From contig CM046858.1 of assembly GCA_025617745.1 (NCBI GenBank), positions 37,403,119-37,467,118 on the forward strand: DNA of 64,000 nucleotides, written 5' to 3'. The stretch comes from Heliocidaris erythrogramma. Lineage: Eukaryota; Echinodermata; Echinoidea; Camarodonta; Echinometridae. A program made the position numbers and the translations under genes. Positions 2,121 through 51,980 of the stretch are shown piece by piece (the first letter of the stretch is position 1; every line of letters starts with the position of its first letter). The notes under the pieces were generated by a model, which searched no databases, was not told where the DNA came from, and saw only the letters and a program-made list of their open reading frames with translations.

Positions 2121-4291
2121 TTAAAATAGGTGGACGCATGCATTCATGTACAAATTCCCATCATGGCGTTCATTTTCAGTACCATACATAGGGTCATTGG
2201 TTGGTACAGCCGAATATAAGTGATCGTTTAAAGAAAGGGTGCTTTGGAAAACGCCTTCCAACGGCTCACCTGGACCATTACCAGAGAAATCATCGGGTGT
2301 GAGATGGGAAGATTGTGAAACCTGTGAGAGAGATTGGGACATTTTCCTTGTTTCATATCTCATATCTGGTTGGGCGTACATTGCTTCCAACTCTTCGGCA
2401 GATCGTGTCGCGCATGGTACCACTGTATCGCCACTCAAGTCTTCTGTTTATCCTTTGATGAAGTTGAGTTGCTGATCTGGTGGCCAGAAAGACGGGCTCC
2501 ATCATGGTCATCGGATGATTGAAATGGCCTTAGAATGGTCGGAAGCATTAAAGGTTGTTTTTTTAAATCTGGTAGTGCCTTTTACATCATCCACTGAGGA
2601 ATACCCGGTTTCGAGAGACGGTGTCATTGAAAGTGGATTATTTCCGAAGTGCTGCCCAGCGTTTCTGTCATCACATGTGTCTCCTATACACCCTCCTTCT
2701 GCAAAGGTGTTGAGATTACACATGCTTTTGGATAGAAACGAATCTTCCATTTCACAAAGTACCGGGAGGGTTTGAGGTTTACCTCGGTCTTCACTGCGGA
2801 ACTGCGTCGTCTCCTGCTTTGAACTATTGCTGTCCGATGTTGGTGAGCGCTGATCAGAGACCTCAGCAACAATGCTAGGCCGACATGGGTGGGAAGAGAA
2901 ACTCGTCATCTCTTGAGATCTTGAATCCTCCACGGTGTCTTCCTCTGCAGATGAACTCTCCAAAGGATCTGGTGACATATGTCGCCCCACGTGATATCTA
3001 TCTTTTCGCACAAAGTTGTAGTGGCATAACATGACCAAGATGATGCCGATGCTGAAAACAAATGCCAGTGAAGAAGCGCCTGTCATGGATATTAGCACTA
3101 TATTATGAAGATCCTCCGAAATTGTATTGTTGCTTTGATCCGTCACCGTCATCAGTTGATTGCAGGTACTAGTCGATTTGAAGAAATTTGCTCGAGTCAC
3201 ACCATCTTCATTAGGTGACGTCGATTCCGATTTACATTTACATTGATGCTTTCACATCGTTGTTCGTCAGTGGAATTGATAGATTGATTGTTCTGGGTAG
3301 AAGATTTAGTAGCAGTCACAGTGATGTTATCCTGATGGCCCTGCAAATCCAAAACTATCATGCTATGCACTATCATCTGAAGGTCATTATCGTCGATGCA
3401 CAGAAATAGTATGTAGTTGGTATTTGTTACGTTGTACGTTTCTTGCAGACTAAGCTGGACTGTTTTGCCACTGTTACTATACCACCAAACGAGAGAAATG
3501 CTCTCAATTCCAACGCAACACTTGAATTGTAGATCATCAGTTTCCCGGTATTTTAACGTTTGATGTTCAAAAGATACAGAGTTACACGTTTCATTAACAT
3601 GGATATTTTCACGAAAAGTCACACAAATATTTGGTACTCCTTCGCCATCTAATATGTCCTGATAATCAACAAAAACATTGATATCATTGGTCAGTATTAA
3701 ATTGCCATCGAGCTTCCTGTGTGTCGTTCGATGTTTATACAACGCATGGTTTCTTGCTTTGAGTTCTGCGTGATCGTCATTGCCGACTTGCATCCACTGA
3801 CAAGACATTTGTAATTTCTCGCTTTCTCTGTCCAGGAGTGTAATGCAAATGGGATGCCTATCAACAACGGTCAACGTGAATATCAGCGCTGTGCAAATGA
3901 GTTGTTCTTTCTCGTAAATAGTAATGTAGTGAGTTCCCGAATCCAATTTTTGCGCAAGTTCAATCCTTATTTCGAATGTATTGTTAGGGACCGATGAAAG
4001 AAGCATATAACGTCCATGAATGTGCGATTCGTTGCTTATGCACTGGAGAGAATGATTACATCTAACTCTCCAAGCTGCATGTGGAGTCATCCACACAATG
4101 GTTTGGCTTTGCTGTACCGCACCCGTCAGACGAAATTTCATCGAAACATCCACACCATTAAGTACGTCGATTTGCTTCCAGTCGTACTCACATGTACTGT
4201 CATTCTTAGACGAAGTACGTTGAACCAAAATCATCGAAATGAAGATACACAGAAAATGTTTCCAACAGAGAAAAGGTGAACCCCTAGACAT
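2121..4291 (-). pseudogene. Divergent member of the tandem receptor family, two frameshifts
   Basis: Read on the minus strand from the ATG at 4291, this encodes a signal peptide, three ectodomain modules, a membrane span and a cytoplasmic tail, in the same order as the intact copy at 37138-39159. Module 1 has a Trp (IVW) and a D-S-G-T-H turn typical of Ig-like strands. Module 2 carries the family signature SEKLQMSCQW-x-QV. Module 3 has FKCC. The tail has EAMYAQPDM and TRKM, aligning with LYAKPDM...TRKM of the intact gene. The frame breaks near 3200-3235, where the first frame ends in MKMV-stop while the next is open upstream and leads straight into the membrane span. It breaks again between 2440 and 2508. 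These could be real disabling mutations or consensus errors. It is the most divergent copy and ends in extra tyrosines, including YMNA (a YxN, Grb2-type pattern) where other copies have YDDP. Confidence 0.75.
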
Positions 4292-5580
4292 GACTACGGT
4301 AATTCAGATAGTTGAACTCGATATAATATATGTAAAATGTACTTAGTCTATATCGAGTGACTACTGTTTGAGATGTTGCTTGCTTTCTAAAATGTTGAAG
4401 TATTGAATATTGAAAATGTGATAACAATGACGATAATAAAATGTAATCATGGAAATGCTGTAGATAGGGTAGCGTAAAATATTGCCGTCTGATGGTCAAC
4501 GAAGGGCAAACAGGTAAACACGACGATGCAAAGCAGCCCCAAATGCATGGAAGTGAAGTCTCAGTAAATCGTCAGACATGTCAGAGCGACTGTTTCACGA
4601 ACTCGCGATTGCTATTGGGTTGGACTTAATGTGACGTTTTAGTTGTTTAAATGCGGATCTGCAAACCGGACACTCATTAATATCAAGATAGGTGGAGTTT
4701 GATTTCCGACGTATGAAATATATTTCCTTGCATGGATGTTCTCTTTTATTTTAACTGACACAGATGGTGAGTAAAGATACAATCAAAACACTTTTATACC
4801 ACGAAACCGAAAGTGCTTATGTTTATCATTTTGCCCTCGTGTGTATTCAAATATGCACATTTACTTCGCCACTCTCCTTTGCTTGGATTGATCTCTTTTT
4901 TTCTCTCTCTCTCTCTCTCCTCCCCCCCCCCCTTTTTTTTGGGGGGGGGGATTTTAAAGAATCATTACATCAGGAGGGATGAGGAATTTCTACATAGAAC
5001 AAAAACAAATCAAATGAGAGATGGTCGATACAAAGGGGGAATCCCGATAGTCCGCGGGGCCGATAGACCGCGGGACCGATAGACCGCGGCATCTCAATGT
5101 ACACGCCAGTCACCAGTAATTCCGCACATTCGCTCAAATCACTATAGGCCTACACCTCTTGCAATCGAAAGCACTAACAGCAAAACTTTAAAAAAAAAAA
5201 AATAGAAAAATGGGAGGTGGATCGTCACCCCCCTCCTGGATGCGCTCATTAACTTTTTGATGTTCAGTTGATTATGCAATAAGTGACTTCAAGTCTTTCT
5301 TTTTATTTGAAATAAAAGAAACTAACGCTAATAAACAGGACGTGCAATTTGAAACTTTTCATTGAAACTCAAAGTTTTATTGAATAACATCTTTGAAAAT
5401 CAACTTTTTCATATAAACAGTACTTATTGCCTTTATCAAACCCATCTCATAACAAATACACAACTATCACTAATTCATATAAAGAATTCAAACTAAGCAG
5501 CGTTAAACTGAATGAATATCAGAAGAGAAACGAGGAAATGACATAACTGACTATTGATTTTGAAGACTGATTAAAATTAT
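4292..5580. other. Upstream of the divergent receptor; simple repeats, no gene
   Basis: A CT run, C run, T run and G run follow one another at 4903-4951. A small array of CGATAGACCGCGG-type units lies at about 5045-5090. No TATA box or coding exon could be supported. Confidence 0.5.
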
Positions 5581-5893
5581 AAATTGAATAAGTTCCAAAT
5601 ATTGATTTGCCTTGGACACAGCTCACCACTGCATGTTATTTTTTTATTTATTTTTTTCTTTGATTGGTTGTATTCATTCATAACCGTCCTCCATTTATTG
5701 CCACAAATTATTTCACAGGGGCCTACAGCTTTACAAGCTTGCTTTCATGTAGGTCCCATCATATTTCTCTCAGTAAAATTACTACATTATATCGACCATT
5801 TACCTTTATGTTATTTATGTATATCTATTTTGAAATGTAAATGTATGTCCATGAGAAATATGAAAATAAATGAAATGAAATGAAATGAAATTT
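5581..5893 (+). repeat. Probable 3' end of a SINE/LINE with (AAATG)n tail
   Basis: The stretch ends in a short AAATG microsatellite (about 5862-5890), the kind of 3' tail left by target-primed reverse transcription. Upstream sequence is not coding. The family is not recognised, and the 5' boundary is a guess. Confidence 0.35.
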
Positions 5894-9480: not shown

Positions 9481-9560
9481 TATGTCACGTCACTCAGGGC
9501 CCTAGTAACGAAAGAGACGTGCGCAAAGCTCGCTGTTGAGGATCTGTCGTTTTTGCGAAG

Positions 9561-9710: not shown

Positions 9711-9734
9711 AAACCCTTGTTTCTAGACAATGAC

Positions 9735-12700
9735 CGATTGCGACTTCCGCCTGATTCCGACCCGTTGGGACACATATTCCATTATGCTGCGGACCTGTGC
9801 ATTGCAGACAATAGGTCTACCCTTTATATCGAGCTTATTAGCAACTTTCCTTAGAGCCCCAAGTTTTTGCCCAGCTCTAGAGGCAACCGTCTGTATATGC
9901 TTGGTCCAGGTTAATTTCCTGTCAATTGTTACACCCAAGATTTCGATCTCATCCTGAGCGACAAGAGGCAATCACCAAATTGCAGGTTTAATTGCGAGGA
10001 GGTTCTCTTCCTTGAAATAGTCATCATTTTAGACTTGGTAGGTTCAAATGTGACTTTCCATTTGTTAGGCCAGGATTTTATGTTTGGCAGGTCCCTGTTG
10101 AGACTATCTTCAATTGATCTGATGTCACTGTTTGCAGGAAAACGAGCAAACAATGTTGAATCATCAGCATACAAGTACAGCTCATTCTCACAGACATCCA
10201 CAAGGTCATCAATGTAGATGGAGAAGATCAGTGGTCCCAGAACAGAGCCCTGAGGTACTGAAGCATTGACAGGGATGGCTTCAGAAGCTTGACCAGCAAG
10301 GACTACTAAGACGTGACGGTCTGACAAATAATTACGTAGCCAAGCAAGAGCTTTTCCATCCACTCCTTTGGATTTCAAGTTCGTTACAAGACCGTTGTGC
10401 CACACTTTGTCGAATGCTCCCTTAATATCAAGGGCCACAATACAGACCTCTTCTCCTTTATCTAGTGAAATGTTACCTTCTTGGGAGATTATTGTTAGGA
10501 GGTCGGCAGTACTGTGACCTGGTCTAAAACCAAATTGTCTGTGGGAAATAAGATTCCTTCTGAACAAATAGCTTTGAAATTGTAAAGAAACAGCGGATTC
10601 CATTACTTTACTAATGATACTAAGTAAAGAGAAGGACGATATTTAGTGGGCTCAGACCTTGAGTCCCTTTTATGAATGGGAACAACATTTGCTGTCTTCC
10701 AAGAACTTGGGAAAACACCACTTTTGAAGCAGAGTTTGAAAAGCCGACTTAAAGGGCTGGCCAGCGCAGCACTACATTCTTTTAATACTCTGGTAGGAAT
10801 ATGGTCCGGACCAGTGGCTTTATCTGGAACAAGTTGTCTGAGAAGCCTATTAATCTTTGGTTTGAATATGACATTCTCAAATGAGGACTGTGTGGACTTA
10901 TCTAAGAAAGGAGCATCTTCTTGTGCTCCTTGAAGGTTGCATTTTTCTGCAAAGGTATTACAGAAGGCTTGAGCCTTTTCTTTAGCAGTACTGTGCACAA
11001 CATTGTCGTTTACTATCACAGGTATATCTGTGTGACCCGATTTACAAGAAAGAGCATTGGCAACCCGCTACCACTTTTTACTACTGATATTTTGGTCTGT
11101 TAGATGTTCTTTGAGTTTTAAGTTGTATTGCTTTTTTGCTTTTTTCTCTAAGACTTTCGGGCTTTAGTGAATTTTTCCTTTGTGGAAGTAGATTTGTCCT
11201 TCTTGTTTTGACGATAGATTCTACGTTTCTTCGTTGCTGCTCTTCTACATTCATCATTAAACCAAGGTTTGTCACCTGTCTTTTTTATGACCATTTTGTG
11301 AGGAATGAATGTTTCCATGGCATCATAAATAATATCAGTGACCTTAGTGCATGCAGTTTCTGGGTCCTTGTCATGAAAGACTTCAGGCCAGTGAACGGAT
11401 GAGAAATGGGCACGCATTTCCCAGAAATCAGCCTTCTCATATTGCCAGACCTTTCGTGTGAAGGGCTTGCCCATAAAAAAACATGGAGGTCCACTGTGAC
11501 CAGGACCAGGTTATGGTCTGAAGTTCCTACATTTTCTAGGGTAGAAGAGGAAGACGGCAAATCTGTCAGGACAAGGTTCAAAATTTGATCCCTTCTAGTC
11601 GGTTCTTTCACTATTTGGTTTAGACCGTATCCGGACACCTACCCCCTGGACAACCACCCCCGGATAACCACCCCTAGGATAACCACCCTCTAGGACAACT
11701 ACCCCCTAGGACAACTACCCCCTAGGGCAACCACCCTCTAGGACGACTACCCCCCTAGGACAAGCACCCCCCGGACAACTACCCCCGGACAACTACCCCC
11801 TAAGACAACCACCCTCTAGGACAACTACCCCCGGACAACTACCCCCTGGACAACTACCCCCCGGACAACTACCCCCTGGACAACTACCCCCTGGACAACT
11901 ACCCCCCCCCGGACAACTACCCCCGTAGTTGTCCTAGGGGGTGGTTGTCCGGGGGTAGTTGTTGGGGGGTAGTTGTCCCTGGGGGTAGTTGTCCGGGGGG
12001 TAGTTGTCCGGGGGTAGTTGTCCAGGGGGTAGTTGTCCGGGAGGTAGTTGTCCGGGGGTAGTTGTCCGGGGGGTAGTTGTCCGGGGGTGGTTGTCCTAGG
12101 GGGTAGTTGTCCTAGGGGGTAGTTGTCTGGGGGGTAGTTATCCGGGGGGTACTTGTCCTAGGGGGGTAGTCGTCCTAGAGGGTGGTTGCCCTAGGGGGTA
12201 GTGGTCCTGGGGGGTAGTTGTCCTAGAGGGTGGTTATCCTAGGGGTGGTTATCCGGGGGGTGGTTGTCCAGGGGGTAGGAGTCCTAGAACCGGTTTAGAC
12301 AATGTGAGTTGGCAAACTGAAGCATAAGGCGTCCAGCAGCTTCCGTATTATGGCTGCCCAACCATTCTTCATGGTGGACGTTAAAGTCCCCAGCAAGTAT
12401 GACAGAGAATGCACCAAACTCTTCCATCTTGGACAAGAGGTTGGAGTCTAAGTATTCAGTTCTGTGGCTGTCAGTATTTGGCGGTTTGTAAACAGCTGCG
12501 ATTAGTAATTTTTCAGACTGCAATATAGTTGTCAACCACACAAGTTCAAGATCATATGGATCTTTTGTTGGATCATGGTGGACTGCTATCCCTTCCAAGC
12601 AGTATACAAGTACACCTCCACCAGAGGATCTACTTCTATAGCAATACAGTCAGCACCATCCTGAATTGAGGAATCTAGAAAAGTCTCCACAACAATAACA

Positions 12701-12978
12701 ATCAATGGCTTCCTATTGTGACAAATGTTTGAAAGCTCTCCAATATTAGACCTAAGGCCACGAATGTTAACTACCAGTAATTGCAGTTCCGAATCACGTA
12801 GTCTGGGGGCAAGCAGGGGTCGATTCCGTGAAGAAAAGATGCAGGGGCAGCTAACCCATGCACCTTTGTGGAGGCGCACTCGAGTTGTGCGGCAGAGGTA
12901 CACACTATACATGGCCTGGTCTGAAAGCATCGTTGGACTCATATCAGACCGGGTTCAGGAGGAACCACCTAGCCAAGT
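9735..12978 (-). mobile_element. CR1/Jockey-type LINE, degraded, split by a foldback insertion
   Basis: Minus-strand open segments give an apurinic-type endonuclease followed by reverse transcriptase. The endonuclease shows VNIRGLRSN near 12750, AGDFNVHHEEW near 12380 and TSDHNL near 11520. The RT shows DKATGPDHIP near 10815, LDIKGAFDKVWH near 10420, PQGSVLGPLIFSIYIDDL near 10230 and the catalytic YADD near 10170. The segments lie in different frames with several stops, so it is dead. The 3' end is missing: the RT thumb stops abruptly near 9735 with no tail. The 5' limit near 12978 adjoins the LTR-like sequence of the next element. A 666-bp foldback element sits inside the endonuclease domain. 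Confidence 0.85.
11626..12291. mobile_element. Minisatellite foldback element 2, 9-bp target duplication, inside the LINE
   Basis: Left arm units are GGACAACTACCCCC and right arm units GGGGGTAGTTGTCC, meeting in the middle near 11930. The ends are CGTATCCGGACACC (left) and GTCCTAGAACC (right), i.e. the two ends of element 1 in the opposite orientation. The 9-bp repeat GGTTTAGAC lies at 11617-11625 and 12292-12300. Taking out the element plus one repeat brings the endonuclease frame of the LINE back into register, so the junctions are exact. The last 120 bases of the right arm match those of element 1 closely in unit order. Confidence 0.9.
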
Positions 12979-12982: not shown

Positions 12983-13127
12983 TGTTAAAGGATACATAAA
13001 GGAAAAGATTGTAAGTCTGGAAAGAAGACTACGGGATTGCAAGATGGCGAGAATAAAGTTACGTTGAGTTTTGATCTCGCAAAAATATGGAGTCAGTTTT
13101 CTTCGTTTCATTGTACTGCATATAACA
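12983..13127 (+). repeat. Candidate 5' LTR of the Ty3/gypsy element
   Basis: It starts TGTTAAAG and ends TATAACA, the TGTTA...TAACA inverted ends usual for LTRs. It is followed directly by TTTGGCGACGAGG, which could act as the primer-binding site, and then by the gag ATG. No matching 3' LTR was found after the integrase, so the call rests on position and ends only. Confidence 0.45.
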
Positions 13128-13140
13128 TTTGGCGACGAGG

Positions 13141-13960
13141 ATGGCTGGTCTACAACCACCTCCACCATTTCTCAATACTCCAGGTCATCCTCCAATTGCC
13201 TGGAAACAGTGGAAGGGACTTTTTCAAACTTATATGATTGCCAGTGGTGCTACTAAGTTTGCGGAGGAACGCCGTCGTGCCTTGTTATTACACTGCTTAG
13301 GACCTGAAGGGCAGCGGGTGTACAATACACTACCGTCTACTGTTCCGACGGGGAGTGCTCAGGCGCAGGGTGATGCTGGTGATGGTCCTACTCCAGTGGG
13401 TTCGTATGAGGAATCATTTGCACGCCTTGATAAGCATTTCAGTCCTGCAGTCAATGTTGTAGCTGCCAGATATCAATTTCGCCAACGAGCTCAAAGACAG
13501 GATGAGTTGGTCGATGATTATGTAAGTGCCTTACGTGAACTTTCCATTAACTGTGACTTTGGTAAATTCAGCGATGAGTTTATTCGAGATCAGCTTGTGG
13601 AAAAGACTCTTTCTGATCGTATTCGTGAACGTTTGTTGATTGAACCAGCTCTTACCTTACAAACTGCACTTACAATCACAAGGCAAATGGAAAGTGCAGC
13701 TAGAAATGCTCTAGTGATTGACTCTGCTTCAGCTCCTATTGAGCCAGTTCATGCTATCGGCCGTGCACCAACTCCCAAGCATCAACAGCAACGAAAGCAT
13801 CGCAAGAAGCATAGCTTCGCTTCAAAGCAGCAAAATGTGAGCACACCAACCTCAAGTGACTTTACTGCATTTTACCGCTGTGGTAAGAAGTCTCACAAAG
13901 CGAATGATGCGTCATGTAAGGCAAGAGGGGCTACATGTAATGCTTGTGGGATAAATTGCG
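13141..13960 (+). pseudogene. Ty3/gypsy gag (capsid and degenerate zinc knuckle)
   Basis: The ATG at 13141 (MAGLQPPPPF) was preferred to an earlier TTG in the same frame. The product has a capsid-like helical region (WKQWKGLFQTYM, then YEESFARLDKHF, then RQDELVDDYVSALREL), a basic stretch and a CxRC/CxAC zinc-knuckle region that has lost a Cys (FYRCGKKSHK, ATCNACG). Near 13950 the frame jumps straight into reverse transcriptase sequence. The protease and the start of RT are therefore missing, by deletion. The product would be the structural Gag of an LTR retrotransposon. It is fossil. Confidence 0.85.
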
Positions 13961-15309
13961 TCGTCTACCTTTTGCTCTACGCGACAAGGTATCTGCAGAG
14001 CTTGTTCGACTCGAGAAAGCAGATATCATTGAGAAAGTGGATGCTAGCGAATGGCTCTCTCCTCTCGTGGTGGTTCATAAGAAATCTGGTGATATCCGCC
14101 TTTGCGTTGACCTTCGGGAAGTCAACTATTAATCAGGCTATTAATATAGATAAATATCCACTTCCCAACAAGAATTGTTTGGAGAGCTAAGAGGTGCGAA
14201 TATATTCAGTTCTCTTGACTTGGCTTCAGCATATCTACTGCATGAAGATTCGCGTGATATGACTTCCTTCATTACACAGGATGGGTTGTTCAGATTCAAG
14301 CGCGTGTGCTTTGGTCTATCTTCAGCACCATCAGCCTTTCAAAAGTTGATGTCCTCTGTCCTGAGAGGTTTCAATGGAGTCCAGTGTTATTTCGATGACG
14401 TGATCGTGTACGGATCTACGCAATCTCAGCAAAGTTCTTGAGCGTTTACATAAGCGTCGGTCTTTCGCTGAATTTGCAGAAGTGCCAGTCCAACCTTACG
14501 CAGATTCGCTATCTGGGACACATAGTGTCTGCTAGAGGGATGGAGCCAGTTCCGGCTCACGTGGAAGCGATTCGGGATGCTCCAGTGCCTACTGATGTCA
14601 GATCATTCTTGGGACTTACAATCACTGAGCCACTCCAAGTGCTAACAAGAAAGGACGTCCCATTCGTATGGACACCAGAAGTTCAGCATGCCTTTGATAA
14701 GGTGAAGGAGATAATTGCCAGCAGTGACACTCTGCACCTCTTTGACCCAGACCTACCAGTCGTCATAGCTACAGACGCATCTGCATATGGTCTAGGTGCG
14801 GTTCTTCTCCAACAGAAGGATGAAGCTGAGGTTCCTGTAGCGTTCGCATCACGTACATTGAGTGAAGCTGAAAGGAACTATTCGGTTGGAGAAAAAGAAG
14901 CATTGGCCTGTGTATGGGCCTTTGAAAAATGGTTTCAATACATATGGGGACGCCATTTCATACTGAGGACGGATCATCAGTCGCTGACTACTTTGCTCTC
15001 ATCGCTGGGCTACACGTCTTATGAGATTCAACTACACCGTTCAGTACAGTCCTGGTGCCCAGAACTGTGCTGCAGACGCGTTATCGCGGTTACCCCTACC
15101 TACAGATGATGTGATTGTGGATGACAACAACGAGATTGTCATCCAAGCCATTGATATGCTTATCGCAGGGAATCCATGTAGCGTTACTAGAGCGGAATTA
15201 CGACGAGCAACTGCGGAAGATTCAGTTCTGTCCCGATTGATCGCGTACGTGGTGAAGGGATGGCCACGTAAAGTTGATGATGAGATTATGCCATTTAAAG
15301 TAGAACTTT
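13944..15309 (+). pseudogene. Ty3/gypsy pol: reverse transcriptase and RNase H, frameshifted
   Basis: Successive frames give RT (VHKKSGDIRLCVDLREVN, SSLDLASAY, RFKRVCFGLSSAPSAFQ and the catalytic YFDDVIVYG) and RNase H (ATDASAYGLGAVLLQQ, then RTDHQSL). They are followed by the start of the integrase linker. Stops or shifts occur near 14132, 14165, 14440, 14620 and 15030. YFDD replaces the usual YLDD or YVDD. The RT palm/thumb region between about 14440 and 14640 is shortened. The frame is cut at 15309 by an inserted element and resumes at 16236. Confidence 0.85.
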
Positions 15310-16229
15310 AATGATTTTAAATATTGGCTTAATACTTATTATTGCATAGATGGCATAAATTAAACAAGGTTATCCAAATTCAACGCTTGGAAACATTTGA
15401 ATTAATGATTATTATCAATTATAAAACGGTAAAATACAGCCCCCGATATAGCAGCTGAAGAGCTCCTCGAACGCTGCTGAGATATGTGACGACACACCAT
15501 GGACCAGTCCTGTCTAAGCAGACGATGTCCCATAACATCTTACACATTTTTCAAAGCCTATTTTGTCATCTCCTCTTCACTTATTTCTCTTCCTTCACTA
15601 GCGTCAGTCTTAATGTTAGTATGTTGCCTCACTCTTAACTTCGTGTATGGTATTATTTTGATGAAAAATGCAGCGTTAAAAAAATAAAGGAATCAGTCAC
15701 TTGTAAACAAAATAAGACGCCATTGTATTTTCAGCTGCTTGCACCGGGGCATGTTCGGCGTTTCAAGAGGGAACGAATACCATCCTGCTATTATTCGGAG
15801 GGCTTTTCAATTTGAAAGTGGGGTTTATTTCATTGATCATTCTCCTGTGTATTTACAATCAAACGGTTTTAGCTATCAGAATCAGTTTCACTTTCCCTTT
15901 ATAATGGTGTGAAATAAGGTCATGTTTAAATACACCAAACTCTTTATAATTTGATAAATAATTGCATTGCAATTACGTTCATTCATTATAGGACGTCGTC
16001 TGCTTAAGCAGGATCGATCCCGAGTGTGACGACATCAAAACATCGCTATATTTATGGCGAATCCTCGGATATTCCAGATGCTGAGAAGAGCTTTTATTTG
16101 TGTTGTTTTTATAATCATCAGATACGCAGTTGACATAAAACTTATACGATTGCCATATGTAAGCTTCCCAGTTTCTAGTGATACATTAATTGCCATATTT
16201 GTGATTTTCTTTGAATATCTACTTTAAGA
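15310..16229. mobile_element. 920-bp palindromic element inserted in gypsy integrase
   Basis: The insertion interrupts the integrase zinc-finger region. AACTTT sits at both junctions (15304-15309 and 16230-16235). Removing the insert plus one AACTTT restores the reading frame across the junction. Inside, GTGACGACA...AGCAGACG words at 15486-15530 are inverted at 15993-16030, so it is at least partly foldback. No transposase is visible and the family is unknown. Confidence 0.7.
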
Positions 16230-17111
16230 AACTTTCTGGTGAGTTGTCAATTATTGATGGGTGTCTCTTCAGAGGGGAGCGAATTTTCGTCCCTACTCAA
16301 CTTCAGTCAAAGCTCATCACTTTTGCGAGATCTCTACTGGTGGCCTGCCATGGATCGAATGGTAGAGGAAGCCATCAATAGTTGTTACGCATGCCAACGT
16401 AGTGATAAAGTAGCACGTACGCACAACACACCACTGCAAAGTGTGCCATTGCCTTCTGGTCCATGGGAGAAAATCGGAATCGACATAACAGGTCCTTTCA
16501 ATTCGCATGAGTACACGTACGCGATAGTTGTGATTGATTATTATTCGAAGTGGCCGGAAGTTCCATTCGTATCTGAAGTGACGTCGAGTTCAGTGATAAA
16601 GTTCCTTCTGAGATTGTGTCAGACAATGGAGTTCAGTTTGTGTCTTCTGAGTTCCAGCAGTTCCTCCAACAGCTGAATATTCAACACTACAGATCTTCGC
16701 TGTACTACCCGAGAGCGAACGGCGAGGTTGAGCGATGGAATCGCGTTTTGAAACAGACGTTACAGATTGCTACTACTGAGCACAAGTCTTGGAGAGAAGC
16801 AGTTTCTGAGCTTCTCATGTCTTACCGAGCTACACCTCATCCAACTACGGGAAAATCGCCAGCGTTGTTGTTGCACGGTAGGAAAATGATCACCCCAGTC
16901 AACATTCGCATACAATGTTTCACAGGTGTACCAAGTGATACCGATTCAGAAATTCACGAGCGAGTGCACAAGAAACAAGCAAAATCAGAAGCGTACACTG
17001 ATAGAGCTACTGTCCCTCGATTCAGGATTGGAGAGAGTGAAACGACCCGTAAAATCTAGTGGTTCAAAGTACTACGCACCACAGAGAATCGTGGGTAAGA
17101 AAGGTCGTTAG
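16230..17111 (+). pseudogene. Ty3/gypsy integrase remnant
   Basis: This is the continuation of pol after the insert. It has the HHCC-type zinc-finger tail (DLYWWPAMDRMVE, CYACQR), then the core with GIDITGPF and VVIDYYSKWPEV, and DNGVQF and the Glu of NGEVERWNR. Short deletions and shifts occur near 16305 and 16610. The reading ends at KKGR-stop near 17111. No 3' LTR follows, so the element is truncated. Confidence 0.8.
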
Positions 17112-21113: not shown

Positions 21114-21316
21114 GCAACATATAGCTTTTCAGGAGGGACAAAGATGTATGTTGGTGAGATCATATTGATTACCCACATTCATCTCAGAAGTTTCATATTC
21201 ATATAACACGGGATCTCCTGCTACAAGTCGTTCACCTGCAACCACTGACAAAACATCTGCAATGTCCAGCTCCCCTTGTGGAAAAAAGTCTCGCACATTG
21301 GCTTCAATCTGTCATT

Positions 21317-21913
21317 TAAAGGGCCCCTGCGACCAACGTAACCCAAATGCAAGTTGGTTGCTGTTGATGTGCAGGGATGCTTAAACTAATATTCTCTTAT
21401 TCAAACATCTAGATATGTTTCATAGTTTTTAAAATGTATTTTTTTGAAATATTTTTGCCAACCTCCTAAGCTCCATTCTAAAAGGAAGCTCCAGATCTCA
21501 TTCCTGCAGTGGCATCATTTGTTAATCATCAGTCAGCTACACTAATACTCTACAACAGACAGTGAGATGTAACTTCTCCCAGCTCAGCACATGCTCACAA
21601 TTGCATGCTTTCAAACAATACTACTATACAAGCATTGTATGGTCTATTAGAATAGATGGCCATCTCTGGCCAAGCTACATACCACTGTCTCTCCTAAGCT
21701 CACTAATGATTGACAGATTATGTCACTGCATCAATGAGATCTGGAGCATTTTTTAGGGTGGAGCTTAATTAGCATGTTTGAGAAAATGATTTCAAAAAAT
21801 ATTTTAAACTCTCTGAAACATATTTAGATGTTTGAATAACAAAATATGAGTTGTATGCATCCCTGCACATCAACAGATATCAACATGCATTTGGGTTGCA
21901 GGGGACCTTTAAA
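21317..21913. mobile_element. Fully palindromic MITE in the receptor relic
   Basis: The arms mirror each other almost from end to end: AAGG(G/T)CCCCTGC at the tips, then TTGATGTGCAGGGATGC, AAACATCTA and AGATCTGGAGC words inverted on the other side. Flanking TTTAAA occurs at both ends. It has no coding capacity. Confidence 0.75.
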
Positions 21914-22519
21914 TAGTTAAATTCAGTAACAAAATAGTACAAAGTGGCGTCCTCGTTCATACAATATTAGTGTGCGCAATCCAGTATCGTTTTCTTCAAA
22001 GAGCATAATCGACGTCTCAAAGTTCTTTTTTCTGTTTTGATAGTAAGTCAAACTATAACGTTCAGAATGTACAAACGTAAAGATATGAGGTACTCACCTT
22101 CTTATAAATTTCTCTGACAATATATCTCATGTTTGTTTGTACCATTTATCTTGTTTGTACAATTATATTGTTTGTGCCATTTATACTGTAAAAACACATT
22201 GTAGATGTGAAATAGGCAACAATAAATTGAAACTAAACTGAAACTAAACTAAAGTATTGTCCATGATAGATATGTTAAACCCTATTTCCTGTTTTGACTC
22301 TGCTTTACTCCACACAATACTTTGTGATAACATTTAACAAATTCATAGTGACGAAGCTTTTCGACCTGCACTCATCGGGTCACAACGCAGGAATGAGAGA
22401 ATACAAGAAAGTACAAAAGTCAAGGAAGTGTGTGTACAGGGTCCCGGATATGATCCGGGCACGCTAAAATAATCGAAGCACTTGTACAAACTCCTTTTGT
22501 CGGCACAATAGCGGATCGA

Positions 22520-26383: not shown

Positions 26384-26513
26384 ACCCCGATTCTTCTTGT
26401 TCATCGTCACACCAGAATATGTTATCATTTGAAATTGCATGATGGAAATATGCTTGCAAAGTAAAGAAAATTAGAAATATTTTCACAACGAAGGTAAGGC
26501 GTCCAACGAACAT
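26384..26513 (-). pseudogene. Orphan 5' end of a receptor gene (signal peptide plus first residues)
   Basis: From the ATG at 26513 the minus strand reads a clean signal peptide (MFVGRLTFVVKIFLIFFTL...) and the first mature residues including FWCDDEQEES, matching FWCNDEQEES of the intact copy. Homology stops at 26384 in a short-unit array. The upstream side carries the full upstream flank. Without the rest of the ectodomain it is a truncated gene, although the open frame is undamaged as far as it goes. Confidence 0.85.
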
Positions 26514-32238: not shown

Positions 32239-34053
32239 TCAGGATTGGCCATTATTATGAGCTAGAATCCTCTGCCAGAAATCTTCACCGGGATCCCTTG
32301 GATCATCATAATGCGATTCCGATGTAGCCATTTTCCTGGTCTTTTGACTCATGTCTGGTTTAGCGTACAGGAGGTCCACGTCTGTTGACGGTCCTCGTAA
32401 GTTGTCTATCAACGGATCTGCAGGTGCTGTCTTTCGATTGCCTGCTGAAGATGATGACGACTTGCTCACACTGTACGGGGCAAAAAGACCTTTGTGGTCG
32501 TCGGATGGCAAACCTAACCCTTGAAACGACATCGGTATTACTTGAGAGGTTCTTGATATTTTGTCGTCATCCGGAGAAGATTGTCTTGCCAGGTGTAGAC
32601 GCTCTCCAGTAGGAAGAGCTTGCTCTAGAGGACTTCCCATGCAATTTACGAAGGGCGTGCATATCATGTCGTGTCTCGCAGGGAGCATCCTGACATTCAT
32701 TTGGCATTCTTGCGAGGACAACATGGGTGCCTTATTTGGATCAGATTCTTCCCTGTCTGATGTGCGCCGACAGGGCACATCTCGACCAGTTGTCATTTCG
32801 ACAGACTCTTCATCGGTATTACCAAAGGTTGTGGCTTTCATTCGAAAAATTTAGATTCGTCTCACTTTGACGATCATATTGCTTCCTCTGATTTTGCACA
32901 GGTATTTACCAAATTGAATAACCATGCTCAACGCAAATGTAAGGACTGTAATTACGACAATGATAATCAGTATATTCCGTTCACTTTCATTATGTGTTCT
33001 GCTCTCATTTACTTCTCCATTACCACACGTTGTGGAAGAACTGATAATTAGTAGGGCTGTCCTGACTTGTTGCAGGTGACGTCGATGTTGTATCAGTAGC
33101 TTCAGTCAACTCTCTTCCTGTAACATTTACGTTATTAAGTGTTTCACATCTATAAGCATTTGAGTCTCCAGATAAAGTCGATGAGACTGAAACGAACGTT
33201 CAGTAAGATTTAACGGTGTTAGTGATTTGCCATCGAAAATGTACCTTGTAAGAGACACATTCTCTTTTCCTAAGCAGTATATAAAAGCTGAAACGTCGCC
33301 TCCCTTTGTTGTATTATATTGATTTGCTGTAAGAAAATCACATCTCTTGGTCGAATTTCCTCCCAAATGAGAAATTGCACATTGTCTTGGCACAGTACCC
33401 GCATCATGCAGCTTTTCAGGAGGAACAAAAATGCTATATTTGTTGGTGATATTATATTGACCCCCGACATTCATCTCAGAAGTTTCATGTTCATATAAAA
33501 TCTGATCTCCTGCTACAATTGCTGCTCGATCTGCAACGTTCACCTGCACCCATTGACAGGACATCTGCAATTTTTCACTCCCCTTGTTGAAATGTGTCGT
33601 GCAGATTGGCTCTGTCTCGTCAATGGTTAAATTAAGGTGGAAAACGGTGCATAATGGCCGTCCTCCTTCATACGTTTTCAGAGTATGCAATCCACTATCG
33701 TTTTCAGTGAGCATAATCGACATCTCAAAGTTCTTTGTTCTGTTTTCATAATAAGTCAAACTATGACGCCCATAATATAAAGAGGTAATCTCCGTTATAG
33801 ATATTAAGTTGAACCGTATTTCCAAATCTGACTCTGCTTTACTCCAGACAATGCTTTGTATTGAGGGGTTTTCTTCCAGGTTGAATAAGAATTCTACATG
33901 GATCGTTTGCCCGTTCATCGCGACCCTCGATTCTTCTTGTTCATCGCCACACCAGAATACGGTATCATATGAAATTGCATGATGGAAATATGCTTGCAAA
34001 GTAAAAAGAATTAAAAATACCTCCACAACGGAGGTCAGACGTCCACTGAACAT
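32239..34053 (-). pseudogene. Receptor-family copy 2, disabled by deletions and frameshifts
   Basis: The ATG is at 34053 (MFSGRLTSVV, signal peptide), not the longer open frame from 34134. The ectodomain is intact through module 2 (SEKLQMSCQWVQV) and into module 3 (YIFDGKSLTPLNLT). About 120 bases encoding the end of module 3 are then missing and the frame shifts, with a stop near 33127. The membrane-span region survives at about 32890-33000 in another frame, and the tail is open again from 32841 to 32239. A block containing the YCSLDDV motif is lacking, but LYAKPDMSQKTRKM and YDDPRDPGEDF remain. Apart from these lesions it is close to copies 3 and 4. Confidence 0.9.
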
Positions 34054-34726
34054 GTTTGCGTAACAATGTCGAATTTCACGTGAAAAAATTGACGTCGAAG
34101 ATTTACAAAGTTGTACAAGAAATATCTGAAACAACTAGTTATCCTTTGATCTTACTGGTGCGGAAGAAATGTTACCTGGCAATGCTGGGGGATCCTCTTG
34201 AAGGCATCACGTGATCTTTCTTTCATCGTATTTATCACGTCATGTAATCACTAGTTCAAAGGATAGGCGATAATGATAACACCAAAATCAGTTTCGGTAA
34301 CAGAGTACAAAATTCGAAGTGAAAGGAAAGGGGATCAACCGAATATTTGTTTTTATAACTGAAAGTAAAACGTGAAGTGGTATCTTGTCATTACATGTCA
34401 AGTGCTCTGGACAATTAATCATTCTCCAATAGTCCAAGGTAAGAATATTCTAAACAACAAATCGTTTTTCCTGAGTAGTGATGAAAACTAATTAATTTCT
34501 CTTTCTTTCATGTAATAATTGCATTTTGCTCACGGTTAAATCAAAGAAAATGTATTATGTCTAAACATGTACAATGGGCAATGCCACATTTATTTATTTT
34601 TTATTTAAATTGACGCTAGAGATATGCCACTTAGCTCTCGATGCCGTGCCTGGAAATTGCCTGCAAATTACTTTTAATTACTTCCTCCTTAACCAGGTTC
34701 AGACTGGGACTGGAATTTGGTCACAG
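34054..34726. repeat. Upstream flank of copy 2 (first part)
   Basis: It matches 39160-39890. It includes a candidate 5' UTR exon ending at 34176 (minus strand, CAG then GTAACA) and an acceptor-like TTGTTTCAG ending at 34126. Homology continues at 36043 beyond the inserted LINE. Confidence 0.75.
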
Positions 34727-36042: not shown

Positions 36043-36708
36043 TTGGTAGAGGAATATCGATCACTGTGATGTCCGGCCAACCTGCAGGATACGCATTCCA
36101 AAATTGTCCAAGCATTTTCATGCAAATTATTGTTAACGTGGCTAGGCCGACGTCCCACTAGACCATTGTCGCACGGTCGTCTTTTTCTCAAAAATCATCC
36201 TTCTTGTATGTTTGTTTAGTGAAACTGATATACTGATTTGAAAACTACATAACTTTTAGATCAACCGGCACTCAGACTACCAGCTGACCAGACCAAATGC
36301 AAAATTAGCAAGCGGCCAGCGGGGAAAACTCCCCAAACTCTCCAAGGCGAGTCCGTCTATATACATATGTTTATATATGAAGAATGATAGTTTACGTCAT
36401 ACGGGTTATGAAAAATCCAAAGCCTGTTTGAGTGAATGAGATTAAGGTCAGGATGTGTTCTATGATGGATCAATATTAATTTCTTTCAGTCACTTTTAAA
36501 CAAAGATTTAGGTCATTCATTTACCTCATAATGCTCTGGCTATTGTTAATTTGTCAAAGAGCTTTTCAGAGGAAACATTACAATACTTTAGAGCTCAAAA
36601 TGGCATTTTCGCCAGGAATGCGGCCGGTGTCTGCTCGATAACTGCGGGCTCCACCGCATTTTAAGGGGTCGGCTAACATCCGCAGGGCACCGAAACCTGC
36701 TACCCAAG
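36043..36708. repeat. Upstream flank of copy 2 (second part) and start of GC-rich block
   Basis: It continues the alignment with 45901-46570: ATCGATCACTGTGATGTCCGG, GGGGAAAACTCCCCAAACTC, AAAATGGCATTTTCGCCA, then the first 100 bases of the GC-rich block, after which homology ends at about 36708. Confidence 0.8.
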
Positions 36709-36998: not shown

Positions 36999-37137
36999 CT
37001 TATTATTACCTCATAATGCATAAAACTTTGTTACAGGCCTATCAGTCAGCTTGTCCAACTTTGTAGTATTTTTGAAAGCTGCTACGTCGGTGATCATTAT
37101 GGCACCCTGTTGCACCAGTATCAGTAGGAAACATTGT
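36999..37137. repeat. Downstream flank of copy 3
   Basis: It matches 49870-50008 and 32105-32238 (CCTCATAATGCATAAAA, TTTGTAGTATTTTT, GCTGCTAC, GATCATTATGGCAC), so the 3' flank was duplicated along with the gene. Confidence 0.8.
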
Positions 37138-39159
37138 TCAGGATTGGCCATTATTATGAGCTAGAATCCTTTGCCAGAAATCTTCACCGGGATCCCTTGG
37201 ATCATCATAATCCGACTCCGATGGCGCCATTTTCCTGGTCTTTTGGCTCATGTCTGGTTTAGCGTACAGGAGGTCCACGTCTGTTGACGTTCCTCGTAGG
37301 TTGTCTACCAACGGATCTGCAGGTGTTGTCTTTCGATTGCCTGCTGGAGATAATGACGACTTGCTCACACTGTACGGGCCAAAAAGACCTTTCTGGTCGT
37401 CGGATGGCAAATTTAACCCTTGAAACGACGTCGATATTACTTGAGAGGTTGTTGATCTTGCATTTGCAGTAGCACCTTCGACATCATCTAGGGAACAATA
37501 CGTATTATCTATGATCGGTGCGCTAGGAACGACGACCCTTTTATCGTGATGCCCAAGAATTTTGTCTTCATCCGGAGAAGATTGCCCCGCCTGGTGTAGA
37601 CGCTCTCCAGTAGGAAGAGCTTGCTCTTCATGACTTCCCATGCTATTTACGAAGGGCCTGCATATCAAGTCGTTTCTCGCAGGGAGCAACCTGACATTCA
37701 TTTGGTATTCTTGCAAGGACGGCTTGGTTGTCTTATTTGGATCAGATTCTTCCCTGTACGATGTGCGCCGACAGGACACATCTCGACCAGCTGTGGTAAT
37801 TTCGACAGACTCTTCATCGGTATTACCAAAAGTTGTGGCTGAGTTCGGTCGAAAATTTAGATTCCTCTCACTTTGGCGATCATATTGCTTGCTTCCTCTG
37901 ATTTTGCATAGGTATTTACCGAATTGAATAACCACGCTCAACACAAATGCAAGGGCTGTAATTGAGACAATGATAATCAGTATATTTCGTTCACTTTCAT
38001 TATGTGTTCTGTTTACTTCTCCTTTAACACACACTATAGTAGAACTGGAATTGATAGGGCTGCCATGACTTGTTGTAGCTGGTGTATCAGTAGCTTCAGT
38101 AAATTGTCTTCCTGTAACATTTACGTTAAGTGTTTCACATCTAGAAGCATTTGAGTCTCCAGATAAAAAAGTTGATGAGACTGAAATATCAAGAGTTTCC
38201 TGTCTGCCAAAAGTCATATGTCCAATGCTTTTTGATATAGCAATGGAGTCACCGCTTTCTTCACTGCAGAAGAAAATAAGAAAACTTGTAGAAGTCTTAA
38301 ACGAACTTTCAGTTAGATTTAACGGTGTGAGTGATTTGCCATCGAAAATGTACCTTGTTAAAGACCTGTTCTCCTTTTCTAAGCAGCATGTAAAATCTAC
38401 ACCCTGACCGCCCAAAGTTGTATTATATTGATTTACTGCAAGGAAATCACATGTCTTGGTCGATTTTCCTCCCAAATGAGAAACTACACATTGCCTTGGA
38501 AAAGTACTTGCATCATTTAGCTTTTCATGAGGAACAAAAACGCTGTACTTGTTGGTGATATTATATTGACCCCCGACTTTCATCTCAGAAGTTTCATGTT
38601 CATATAAAACCCGATCTCCTGTTACAAGTCTTGCTCGGTCTCCATTGTTCACTTGCAACCACTGACAGGACATCTGCAATTTTTCACTCCCCTTGAGGAA
38701 AAGAGTCTTGCAGATTGGCTCTGTCTCGTCAATGGTTAAATTCAGGTGGAAAATGGTGCAAAGTGGCCGTCCTCCTTCATACGTTTTCAGAGTATGCAAT
38801 CCAGTATCGTTTTCAGTGAGTATAATCGACATCTCAAAGTTCTTTGTCCTGTTTTGATGGTAAGTCAAACTATGACGTCCAGGGTATAAAGACGTGTTGT
38901 TCATGACAGAAATATTATATCGTTGTTCCAGTTCTGACCCTGCTTTATTCCACACAATGTCATGTGCTGGTTGTAGGGTGTCCAGATTGAATGAGAATTC
39001 TGCATGGATCGTTTGTCCGTTCAGCGCGACCCTTGATTCTTCTTGTTCATCGTTACACCAGAATGTGTTATCATTTGAGTATGCATACCTAAAATATGTT
39101 TGCAAAATTAAGAAGATAAAAACTATCTTCACAACGGAGGTAAGGCGTACACGATACAT
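37138..39159 (-). CDS. Intact single-exon type I receptor, Ig-like ectodomain, tyrosine-motif tail (copy 3)
   Basis: 673 codons without interruption, ATG at 39159, stop at 37138-37140. Residues 1-28 are a signal peptide (KIVFIFLIL core). Module 1 (about 30-145) has C35, W70 and D118-T-G120, as in Ig-like folds, but the second Cys (C134) falls late. Module 2 (about 146-240) carries SEKLQMSCQWLQV with C150, C165, C224, C237. Module 3 (about 250-345) has C258, C259, C298 and C341. There are some 15 N-glycosylation sequons, then a Ser/Thr-rich stalk, a membrane span at about 392-414 and a 255-residue tail. Tail tyrosines sit in YQMN (485), YCSL (554), LYAKPDM (631-637) and YDDP (651-654). Known motif classes suggest Abl/Crk-type signalling at the last two; that is inference. 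The adhesion or pathogen-recognition role is unknown. A CDS with a signal peptide, span and tail in one exon fits retroposition or an intronless immune-type family. Confidence 0.92.
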   Translation of the reverse strand: MYRVRLTSVVKIVFIFLILQTYFRYAYSNDNTFWCNDEQEESRVALNGQTIHAEFSFNLDTLQPAHDIVWNKAGSELEQRYNISVMNNTSLYPGRHSLTYHQNRTKNFEMSIILTENDTGLHTLKTYEGGRPLCTIFHLNLTIDETEPICKTLFLKGSEKLQMSCQWLQVNNGDRARLVTGDRVLYEHETSEMKVGGQYNITNKYSVFVPHEKLNDASTFPRQCVVSHLGGKSTKTCDFLAVNQYNTTLGGQGVDFTCCLEKENRSLTRYIFDGKSLTPLNLTESSFKTSTSFLIFFCSEESGDSIAISKSIGHMTFGRQETLDISVSSTFLSGDSNASRCETLNVNVTGRQFTEATDTPATTSHGSPINSSSTIVCVKGEVNRTHNESERNILIIIVSITALAFVLSVVIQFGKYLCKIRGSKQYDRQSERNLNFRPNSATTFGNTDEESVEITTAGRDVSCRRTSYREESDPNKTTKPSLQEYQMNVRLLPARNDLICRPFVNSMGSHEEQALPTGERLHQAGQSSPDEDKILGHHDKRVVVPSAPIIDNTYCSLDDVEGATANARSTTSQVISTSFQGLNLPSDDQKGLFGPYSVSKSSLSPAGNRKTTPADPLVDNLRGTSTDVDLLYAKPDMSQKTRKMAPSESDYDDPRDPGEDFWQRILAHNNGQS

Positions 39160-39930
39160 CGTGCCGTAACAATCTCAAAAATTGAAAAGTGGAAGATTTA
39201 CAAAATTGTACAAGATAAATCTGTAAAGCATGTTATCCTATATGATTTACAAATGACTCTCCGTATCCTTTGAATGATCTAATTGCTGCGGAAGAAATGT
39301 TACCTGATAATGCTGGCGGATCCTCTTGAAGGCATCATGTGATTTTTCTTTCATCGTGTTTATCACTTCAGGTAATCACTAGTCATGCTAGTGCAAAGGA
39401 TCGGCGATAACTATAACACCAAAATCAGTTTCGGTAATGGATCACAAGATTCGTATTTAAAGGAAAGGAGTTCAACCGAAGATTTGTTTTTATAAATGAA
39501 AGTAAAACGTGAAGTAGTATCTTATCATCACGTTTCAAGTGCTCTCTCTCTCTCCTTCTCTCTGAACAATTAATTGTTATCCACGGTAAGAGTATTCCAA
39601 ACAACCAATCATTTTTCTTGAGTAATTAATGAAAACTAATTAATTTCTCTATATATTGTCATCGATATACAAAGTACACTTTTCTCGTGGCTGAATCAAA
39701 CAAAGCTTAAAATGTCTTAACATATTAAATGGGCAATTCTATTAGTTTGCCTTTTATTTATATTGACACGAGAGACATACGATTAGTCCTCGATGCCGTG
39801 CCTGGAAAATACCGGCAAATTATTTTTCATTACTTCCTCCTTAACCAGGTGCGGACTGGAACTGAAATTTGGTTGGGAAATTTCGGTAAGTGTGACCGGC
39901 CCACTCACCCAATAGAATAATATTACACAT
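39160..39930. repeat. Upstream flank of copy 3 with candidate 5' UTR exon and 73-bp intron
   Basis: It is conserved with the flanks at 26514, 34054, 45079, 51981 and 56764. On the minus strand a segment ending at 39304 (ATCCGCCAGCATTATCAG) is followed by GTAACA. GCTTTACAG ends at 39231, giving a possible 73-bp intron just upstream of the ATG. The upstream segment contains its own ATG out of frame with the receptor, so it would be 5' UTR with a short upstream frame. No TATA box was identified. Confidence 0.55.
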
Positions 39931-40785: not shown

Positions 40786-41255
40786 TTAACACCTACATTT
40801 CCAGAGGCTCATACTCGATGCACGTATTACGACTGAGCAAACTGACATGGAAATGATCAATACTTGCTCTTCGTAGCTACTTTGACTGCCGACATCAAAA
40901 TCCACTCTTTTACATCTTGACGTGGAGTTGATCTGCTGGCTTGAGGTAATCGAGCAGTAAGCACTTCCCATGCTCCTGTAGATGTTTATGGTTAGGACTT
41001 CACATCTAGAACATGTATAAGTATTCAAATTGCTAGAAGCATTTTTGTCTCCAGATGAATATGTTGAGGCTGAAATATTAAGAGTTTGCTGTCTGCCAAA
41101 AGTCAGATATCCAATGCTTCTCAGTATCACAATGGAGTCACCGCTCTCTTCACCGCACAAGAACTTTCCTAAGAAAACTTTATCTCTTTAGCACAAATCT
41201 CTTTACCATTCAGTAAGATTTAGCGCTGTTGGTGATTTGCCATCACTTAAAGCAT
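40786..41255 (-). pseudogene. Receptor-family fragment (membrane-proximal ectodomain)
   Basis: The minus strand reads CGEESGDSIVILRSIGYLTFGRQQTLNIS and on to the stalk, matching residues about 275-390 of the intact copy (excerpt of the match: GRQETLDIS against GRQQTLNIS). The part nearer 41255 is frame-shifted. A membrane-span-like stretch (QVLIISMSVCSVVI) is followed by unrelated sequence and a stop, so there is no tail. It is divergent from copies 2-4, so it is an independent family member. Confidence 0.8.
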
Positions 41256-50008: not shown

Positions 50009-51980
50009 TCAGGATTGGCCATTATTATGAGCTAGAATCCTTTTCCAGAAATCTTCACCGGGATCCCTTGGATCATCATAATCCGACTCCGATGACGCCG
50101 TTTTCCTGGTCTTTTGGCTCATGTCTGGTTCAGCGTACAGGAGGTCAAAGTCTGCTGACGGTCCTCGTAGGTTGTCTACCAACGGATCTGCAGGTGCTGT
50201 CTTTCGATTGCCTGCTGAAGATAATGACGGCTTGCTCACATTGTACGGGGCAAAAAGACCTTTCTGGTCGTCGGATGGCAAATTTAACCCTTGAAACGAC
50301 GTCGATATTTCTTGAGAGGTTGTTGATCTTGCATTTGCAGTAGCACCTTCGACATCATCTAGGGAACAATATTTATTATCTATGATCGGTGCGCTAGGAA
50401 CGACGACACTTTTATCGTGATGCCCAAGAATTTTGTCTTCATCCGGAGAAGATTGCCCCGCCTGGTGTAGACGCTCTCCAGTAGGAAGAGCTTGCTCTTC
50501 ATGACTTCCCATGCTATTTACGAAGGGCCTGCATATCAAGTCGTTTCTCGCAGGGAGCAACCTGACATTCATTTGGTATTCTTGCAAGGACGGCTTGGGT
50601 GTCTTATTTGGATCAGATTCTTCCCTTTCTGATGTGCGCCGACAGGACACATCTCGCCCAGATGTAGGGACCCGAGATGTTGTGGTCATTTCGACAGACT
50701 CTTCATCGGTATTACCAAATGTTGTGGCTGAGTTTGGTCGAAAATTTAGATTCCTCTCACTTTGGCGATCATATTGCTTGCTTCCTCTGATTTTGCATAG
50801 GTATTTACCGAATTGAATAACCACGCTCAACACAAATGCAAGGGCTGTAATTGAGACAATGATAATCAGTATATTATGTGTTCTGTTTACTTCTCCATTA
50901 CCACACGCTGTAGTAGAACTGGAATTGATAGGGCTGCCCTGACTTGTTGTAGTTGACGTCGCTGGTGTATCAGTAGCTTCAGTAAATTGTCTTCTTGTAA
51001 TATTTACGTTAAGTGTTTCACATCTAGAAGCATTTGAGTCTCCAGATAAAAAAGTTGATGAGACTGAAATATCAAGAGTTTCCTGTCTGCCAAAAGTCAT
51101 ATGTGCAATGCTTTTTGATATTGCAATGGAGTCACCGCTTTCTTCACTGCAGAAGAAAATAAGAAAACTTGTACAAGTCTCTAATGAACTTTCAGTTAGA
51201 TTTAACGGTGTGAGTGATTTGCCATCGAAAATGTACCTTGTTAAAGACCTGTTCTCCTTTTCTAAGCAGCATGTAAAATCTACACCCTGACCGCCCAAAG
51301 TTGTATTATATTGATTTACTGCAAGGAAATCACATGTCTTGGTTGATTTTCCTCCCAAATGAGAAACTACACATTGCCTTGGAAAAGTACTTGCATCATT
51401 TAGCTTTCCATGAGGAACAAAAACGCTGTACTTGTTGGTGATATTATATTTTGCTCGGTCTCCATTGTTCACTTGCAACCACTGACAGGACATCTGCAAG
51501 TTTTCACTCCCCTTGAGGAAAAGTGTCTTGCAGATTGGCTTTGTCTCGTCAATGGTTAAATTCAGGTGAAGAATGGTGCAGAGTGATCGTCCACCGTCAT
51601 ACAATATTAGAGTATGCAATCCAGTATCGTTTTCAGTGAGCAGAATCGACATCACAAAGTTCTTTGTTCCGTTCTCATGATAAGTCAAACTATGACGTCC
51701 AAAATATGAAGAAGTACTGTCCATGATAGGAATGTTGAACCACATTTCCAGATCTGACTCTGCTTTACTCCAGACAATGCTTTGTGTTGAGGGGTTTTTC
51801 TTCCAGTTCAAATAAGAATTCTACATAGATCGTTTGTCCGGTCAGCGCGACCCTTGATTCTTCTTGTTCATCGTTACACCAGAATATCTTTTCATTTGAG
51901 TATGCATAATGGAAATATGCTTGTAAAATTAAAAGGATTAACATTATCTTCACAATGGAGGTGAGGCGTACACGATACAT
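50009..51980 (-). CDS. Receptor copy 4, one-base frameshift near the N-terminus
   Basis: The minus-strand ATG at 51980 (MYRVRLTSIV) starts a signal peptide and FWCNDEQEES. The frame is lost at a T run, 51795-51799. Copy 2 has four T at this point and copy 4 has five. From there a second open frame continues without a stop through module 2 (SENLQMSCQWLQV), module 3, the span and the whole tail to 50009. Compared with copy 3 it lacks 21 residues of module 2 (including YEHETSEM), has six extra residues in the tail near TSRVPTSGRD, and lacks an ESER segment of the stalk. The tail keeps YCSLDDV, LYAEPDM and YDDPRDP. It is either a functional gene with a homopolymer error in this sequence or a very young pseudogene. 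An in-frame upstream ATG at 51998 would add six residues. Confidence 0.85.

Follow-up and report, generated by a model that had tools for sequence, protein, structure and literature searches.

An array of intronless immunoglobulin-type receptor genes with exchanged long and short ends in the sea urchin Heliocidaris erythrogramma

The DNA analysed here (the window) is a stretch of 64,000 nucleotides from the sea urchin Heliocidaris erythrogramma, whose genome spans 1.064 Gb in 26 contigs; the stretch occupies C6:37403119-37467118. A bindin match in this genome (E 2.1e-68), against none in 14 control genomes, agrees with a sea urchin, although sea stars possess bindin too. A preliminary description of this stretch had proposed seven minus-strand copies or remnants of a single-exon membrane receptor gene. 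We located them by tblastn with 32 proteins of the family as queries, and all seven were recovered at their positions (Table 1); chance is ruled out as the source of these matches, as other copies within the same genome match over their full length with E-values from 0 to about 1e-30. As had been described, one copy is intact, with the frame at 37138-39159 encoding a signal peptide, three modules, one membrane span and a 260-residue tail in 673 amino acids.

The window copies form one end of a much larger array. Genome searches returned at least 82 matching stretches with the intact copy, and at least 102 and at least 63 with two further family proteins. The merged results give about 90 places genome-wide, of which about 81 lie at C6:36518859-37469573 (about 0.95 Mb), on the minus strand in 81 of 81 cases and with a median gap of 6.5 kb; these counts are approximate because the searches give lower bounds, further weak places turned up in later searches, and the merging fuses at least two genes at C6:37211407-37214497. 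Nine places lie outside the array, distributed over C9, C16, C20, C21 and the part of C6 near 38.2-38.4 Mb. To gauge the integrity of the family, we examined 58 frames of more than 250 amino acids with family ectodomain sequence. By thresholds that we set ourselves, 38 of these are full-length receptors with signal peptide, three modules and span in one frame, and 36 of the 38 lie in the array; four further loci (L011, L034, L037 and L062) fall short narrowly or in one point. The picture of rapidly decaying genes in the preliminary description thus holds for the window and not for the family at large. A genome search with L062, the most divergent member, returned loci of the family and no set of spliced-looking relatives elsewhere, and inspection of the upstream regions by eye revealed no common splice acceptor, which leaves room for a 5' non-coding exon. 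L062 and L076 (C6:38.16 and 38.18 Mb) form a divergent, almost tailless pair with a third kind of membrane span, L062 being open and L076 broken.

Module 1 is an immunoglobulin (Ig) domain of the variable (V) type without the core cysteines. It adopts an Ig beta-sandwich of V type by fold match, and among the 32 proteins W70, D118 and G120 are invariant and H122 is nearly so, which preserves the D-x-G-x-[YH] motif in the form D118-x-G120-x-H122. The family alignments contain no conserved cysteine in strand B or F for the canonical disulfide; conserved cysteines instead lie ahead of strand A (Cys35) and in strand G (Cys134). A broken D-x-G-x-Y-x-C motif and a displaced cysteine had been noticed earlier, and of the two options offered then, a new domain or a fast-evolving Ig variant, the former was rejected on the fold match. 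The B-F bond is absent from many accepted Ig domains. The Pfam V-set profile matched one of four window proteins with 14 bits, short of its gathering cut-off of 26, and at E <= 0.1 it matched three of the 32 members (best 0.033). We also considered a kinship with the SLAM/CD2 receptors on account of weak profile matches to 2B4 and CD48 (E 0.05-0.09); since myomesin, PD-1 and TIM score alike, these matches reflect merely a general Ig signal, and the kinship was rejected. Pfam scans of the window proteins and the 32 members found no leucine-rich repeat or TIR domains like those of the single-exon sea-urchin Toll-like receptors.

Module 2 likewise has an Ig fold, with cysteines in strands B and F (Cys165 and Cys224) and further ones in strands A (Cys150) and G (Cys237); the A- and G-strand cysteines probably pair in both module 1 and module 2. 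Its strand B is the SEKLQMSCQW segment, whose near-invariance had been noted before and is confirmed across 49 aligned ectodomains, in which the Cys is invariant and the Met, Trp and Gln are nearly so. Module 3 yields a beta-rich model; in one search that included it, the listed matches fell to module 2. Searches with modules 2 and 3 together gave no Foldseek match at E <= 0.001, and the IL-1 receptor, pIgR, KIR and LILR appear as weak matches (E 4.6e-3 and worse) ranked below a non-Ig protein. Pooled ratios of nonsynonymous to synonymous differences per site (pN/pS), from 20 overlapping pairs, are 0.53, 0.54 and 0.66 for modules 1 to 3, 0.60 for the membrane span, 0.64 for the tail and 1.06 for the stalk, which is the fast-changing part.

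One kind of end on these ectodomains is a long tail whose common motifs are YCSV/L, YAKP, YDDP and YxN, and the window's intact copy carries NTYCSL, YAKP and YDDP. Mean column identity in the long tails is 0.32; seven shared tyrosine columns lie at conservation percentiles 0.80-1.00, and the residues beside them average 0.44 versus 0.34 for the tail. Tyr632 is kept in all 24 non-redundant rows with a letter at that column. YxxP occurs in 31 of 32 tails (shuffled mean 13.2, maximum 23) and YxN in 26 (mean 12.9, maximum 21), which we take to be SH2 sites of the Crk and Grb2 types, respectively. A strict immunoreceptor tyrosine-based inhibitory motif (ITIM) is present in 17 tails (shuffled mean 8.1, maximum 15), in 14 of them at the common YCSV/YSSV site, and two more tails carry a motif like the related switch motif (ITSM). 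The predicted spans of the long-tail forms include a His in 2/32 cases, near the edge in both, and any charged residue or His in 6/32.

In five ectodomain lineages, however, the same kind of ectodomain is joined to one common membrane segment of the form STxAHxVSIxAF with almost no tail. These short forms came to light through seven copies that end directly after this different span; a genome search with their C-terminus then located it at 18 places. These include three full open genes (L019, L040 and L042), ten remnants and three free-standing cassettes. In L064 the segment is joined in frame to a copy without N-terminus, L063 being its broken near-twin, and in L086 a gene remnant lies upstream of the segment. 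Between the five lineages the core of the short segment is 72% identical, whereas seven representatives of the long-tail span share 27%. All 18 places keep the His of the short segment, whose pooled pN/pS is 0.39, with pS at 0.47-0.78 in eight of ten pairs; the copies on C20 and at C6:38.38 Mb also retain the segment. Two of the broken short-form copies, L074 (C6:36917) and L075 (C21:48852), are 96.6% identical including the flank and thus represent a recent copy between chromosomes.

Two of the free-standing cassettes lie downstream of long-tail genes, one at 2.8 kb and the other at 173 nt, counted from stop codon to ST codon. Whether free-standing or joined, the copies have before the short segment a sequence that resembles a 3' splice site, with a pyrimidine run and CAG. 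The free-standing cassettes are possible alternative 3' exons, and short forms may also arise by alternative splicing into a downstream cassette. As the origin of the joined short forms we considered a retroposed spliced transcript and rejected it: the splice-site-like stretch stays inside the frame of L064 and L071, which favours genomic joining.

Several lines of evidence reveal that the genes have exchanged both their ends and their first modules. In a DNA tree of modules 2 and 3 with 43 rows (8 short and 35 long), five changes between long and short ends are needed and five are forced by the starred branches, gain and loss being indistinguishable; no bootstrap tree has a single change. The joints differ: upstream of the ST codon, homology to the long-tail relatives breaks off at a distance of 38 nt in L074, 54 nt in L064 and 99 nt in L071. 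Trees of module 1 and of the tail also conflict in branches with good support, the former grouping {L046,L051,L052,L053} (99/97), {L046,L052} (100/99), {L012,L013,L015,L034} (100/99) and {L023,L025} (100/99), and the latter {L038,L046,L048,L052} (100/100), {L048,L052} (100/98), {L009,L014,L034} (97/91) and {L025,L027} (95/81), respectively. In keeping with this, synonymous divergence (dS) varies along the genes, with 0.69 in module 1 and 0.02 in the tail for L001/L002, and 1.23 and 0.10 for L046/L048.

Table 1. Positions of receptor copies, parts of the intact copy and free-standing cassettes (window positions unless a contig is given).
Feature	Position	Strand	Remarks
Broken copy, another subfamily, nearest L028/L029	2124..4303	-	tblastn
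Remnant: module 1 and module 2 pieces	21150..22327	-	tblastn
Remnant: N-terminal 42 residues, including signal peptide	26388..26513	-	tblastn
Broken copy; separate frames for ectodomain and tail	32242..34053	-	tblastn
Intact copy, a single-exon gene of 673 aa and stop	37138..39159	-	one open frame
Signal peptide of intact copy, residues 1-28	39076..39159	-	hydrophobic N-terminus, boundary by eye
Module 1, residues 29-145, V-type Ig domain	38725..39075	-	
Module 2, residues 146-240, Ig-like	38440..38724	-	putative Cys pairing
Signature SEKLQMSCQWLQV, strand B of module 2	38650..38688	-	
Module 3, residues 241-345, beta domain containing a CC motif plus Cys298 and Cys341	38125..38439	-	
Membrane span, long-tail type	37918..37983	-	
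Long cytoplasmic tail, tyrosine motifs in common with family	37141..37917	-	
Tyr554 in NTYCSL, ITIM-like site; Asn at -2, hence no strict ITIM here	37498..37500	-	
Tyr632 in LLYAKPDM, best-conserved tail site	37264..37266	-	
Tyr651 in SDYDDP	37207..37209	-	
Remnant: module 3 and stalk	40918..41241	-	tblastn
Copy with 603 open codons, break near N-terminus	50012..51980	-	tblastn
Free-standing cassette L079	C6:36944077-36944184	gene orientation	
Free-standing cassette L084	C6:36801794-36801892	gene orientation	
Free-standing cassette L083	C6:36739842-36739958	gene orientation	

The window also contains pieces of mobile elements. A broken element of the long interspersed (LINE) type lies at 9929-12954 on the minus strand, with Pfam matches to the RVT_1 reverse transcriptase and the Exo_endo_phos_2 endonuclease, and pieces of a long-terminal-repeat (LTR) retroelement lie at 13126-17059 on the plus strand, with RNase H and integrase domains and a gag-like frame without a Pfam match. 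Two further minus-strand stretches beside receptor copies are LINE-type 3' parts: one with a zf-RVT match at 53650-54609, and a frame similar to it at 35253-36060.

On balance, we favour the view that the array is a germline repertoire of dozens of intronless, paired-receptor-like Ig receptors built by the exchange of ends, with a presumed immune and signalling role. As in the KIR, FcR and NITR receptors, similar ectodomains occur on long-tail and short-tail forms, here in five lineages. More tentatively, and with some doubt, the array may be an independent echinoderm paired-receptor system: an intronless Ig repertoire of about 1 Mb whose two interchangeable ends, a long tail with phosphotyrosines and a short cassette bearing a His, were switched on different ectodomains at least five times, the free-standing cassettes being a source for new switches. 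Under the favoured view, module 1 would bind variable ligands carried by microbes or by cells, whether own or foreign. The long tails would be phosphorylated and dock SH2 proteins via YxxP, YxN and, in some copies, ITIM-like sites, and so restrain or reshape the signal. The short forms would hand the signal to a putative partner protein via the polar face of the common membrane helix. The whole would work like the vertebrate paired receptors (Xenopus XFL, KIR and fish NITR), reached independently. The preliminary interpretation of these genes is partly supported.

Several observations weigh against this paired-receptor interpretation. The short-form span has a His and no Lys or Arg in any of the 18 places, Arg or Lys being found at its inner edge only, and no immunoreceptor tyrosine-based activation motif (ITAM) occurs in the 32 tails. 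The strict ITIM is confined to the 17 tails noted above and is found neither in the window's intact copy nor in its neighbour L002. Shuffled tails are a weak control, as the tails are related by descent. The excess conservation beside the tyrosines is marginal, as 243 of 5000 randomly drawn column sets score as high; the LYAKPDMSRKT block thus accounts for most of the signal. A full open frame is present in just three short-form genes, and pS equals pN in one of the ten short-segment pairs (L019/L074). Lastly, the top Foldseek match for modules 2 and 3 is the non-Ig protein (E 3.9e-3), and the fold of module 3 is not firmly assigned.

Some of these points would suit a different account, in which the short forms serve as decoys or in adhesion and gene conversion alone conserves their segment, with no paired signalling. 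The lack of Lys or Arg in the segment and of an ITAM in the tails, the preponderance of remnants among the 18 places and the generality of exchange across the array are all compatible with it. However, gene conversion would lower pS as well, and the high pS of the short segment with its amino acids kept speaks against conversion, as does its retention on C20 and at C6:38.38 Mb; we consider this account rather unlikely. Distinctly unlikely, in our estimate, is a recognition family of another kind, for self/non-self or gametes, with ligands from the same species as in Hydractinia Alr or Botryllus FcoR. Allorecognition in colonial animals does use tandem Ig superfamily (IgSF) genes with tyrosine motifs (PMC12065747, PMC11999971). 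Mosaic exchange between copies would fit polymorphic recognition too. Sea urchins, however, are solitary, and we know of no natural fusion or rejection in them.

The size of the repertoire is a separate matter, as part of the gene count could be an assembly artefact of unmerged haplotypes placed side by side. Sea urchins are very heterozygous, and the loci at C6:37.04-37.19 Mb are about 91-97% identical in DNA, flanks included, to those at 37.35-37.45 Mb, with a spacing of some 295-310 kb and the matching pairs L051/L053, L046/L052, L059/window 31742-34708 and L057/window 37079-39528; the window itself sits in the second block. The two blocks may thus be either a large segmental duplication or unmerged haplotypes, in which case part of the place count would be inflated. 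Against this, other family members separate the two blocks, most of the array (36.5-37.0 Mb) is not seen doubled, and the subfamilies differ by 30-75% in protein. We regard some such inflation as a serious possibility, though on the doubtful side.

If the paired-receptor reading is right, an invertebrate deuterostome without lymphocytes would possess a large repertoire of Ig receptors of its own, equipped with two signalling ends, and an independent origin of paired receptors would become testable in an animal whose immune cells are easily sampled. The array would also offer a natural experiment, in which one set of genes swaps its signalling output while the binding part is kept. In reviews of echinoderm immunity, the large families are given as TLR, NLR, scavenger receptors and SpTransformer, and the parts considered of a 2026 review use neither 'IgSF' nor 'ITIM' (PMC13428168). 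The titles and abstract openings returned by literature searches contained no description of the present family, which may nevertheless have been mentioned earlier in Hibino 2006 or Rast 2006.

Among known systems, the sea-urchin IgTM is likewise an Ig and transmembrane protein; however, it is described as a single protein of the primary mesenchyme cells that regulates skeletal branching (PMC6768484). SpTransformer (Sp185/333) is a sea-urchin immune family whose members, about 50 and clustered, diversify by duplication and mosaic exchange (PMC5491942), but its genes are small and two-exon and code for secreted-type effectors without known Ig modules. Hydractinia Alr, with 41 genes, offers tandem invertebrate IgSF genes that encode V-like domains, candidate genes also showing ITIM/ITAM-type motifs; these are cnidarian allorecognition genes, in which the lineage-to-lineage swap of one membrane segment is not met in the parts consulted (PMC11999971, PMC12065747). 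Botryllus FcoR, clustered at one locus, combines Ig domains of the V and C2 types with a single span and a long tail that bears ITIM, hemITAM (a half ITAM) or Yxx[ILV] motifs, but it differs in its sushi domain, fewer genes, alternatively spliced exons and pairing with fester proteins in allorecognition (PMC12065747). The fish NITR are clustered V-type receptors, mostly ITIM-bearing with few activating forms, and in some species encode their V and I domains together in one exon; they have one or two Ig domains, and their activating forms bear a positively charged membrane residue and pair with Dap12 (PMC2442602), whereas the urchin family has three modules and a His in the span. Because a charged residue is missing from that span, we liken the family to paired receptors in its working and do not class it as a member. 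The Xenopus XFL are at least 75 tandem FcR-like genes that combine Ig domains with two kinds of membrane segment, so that similar outer parts stand on distinct segments, with YxxV/L/I motifs in the tails (PMC2413239). No sequence match of the urchin family to XFL rises above chance level. XFL are vertebrate receptors with Ig-domain subtypes in varying numbers, and their activating forms associate with FcR gamma (PMC2413239); the urchin family, in contrast, presents one fixed three-module exon, a His-bearing segment and a partner that is putative only.

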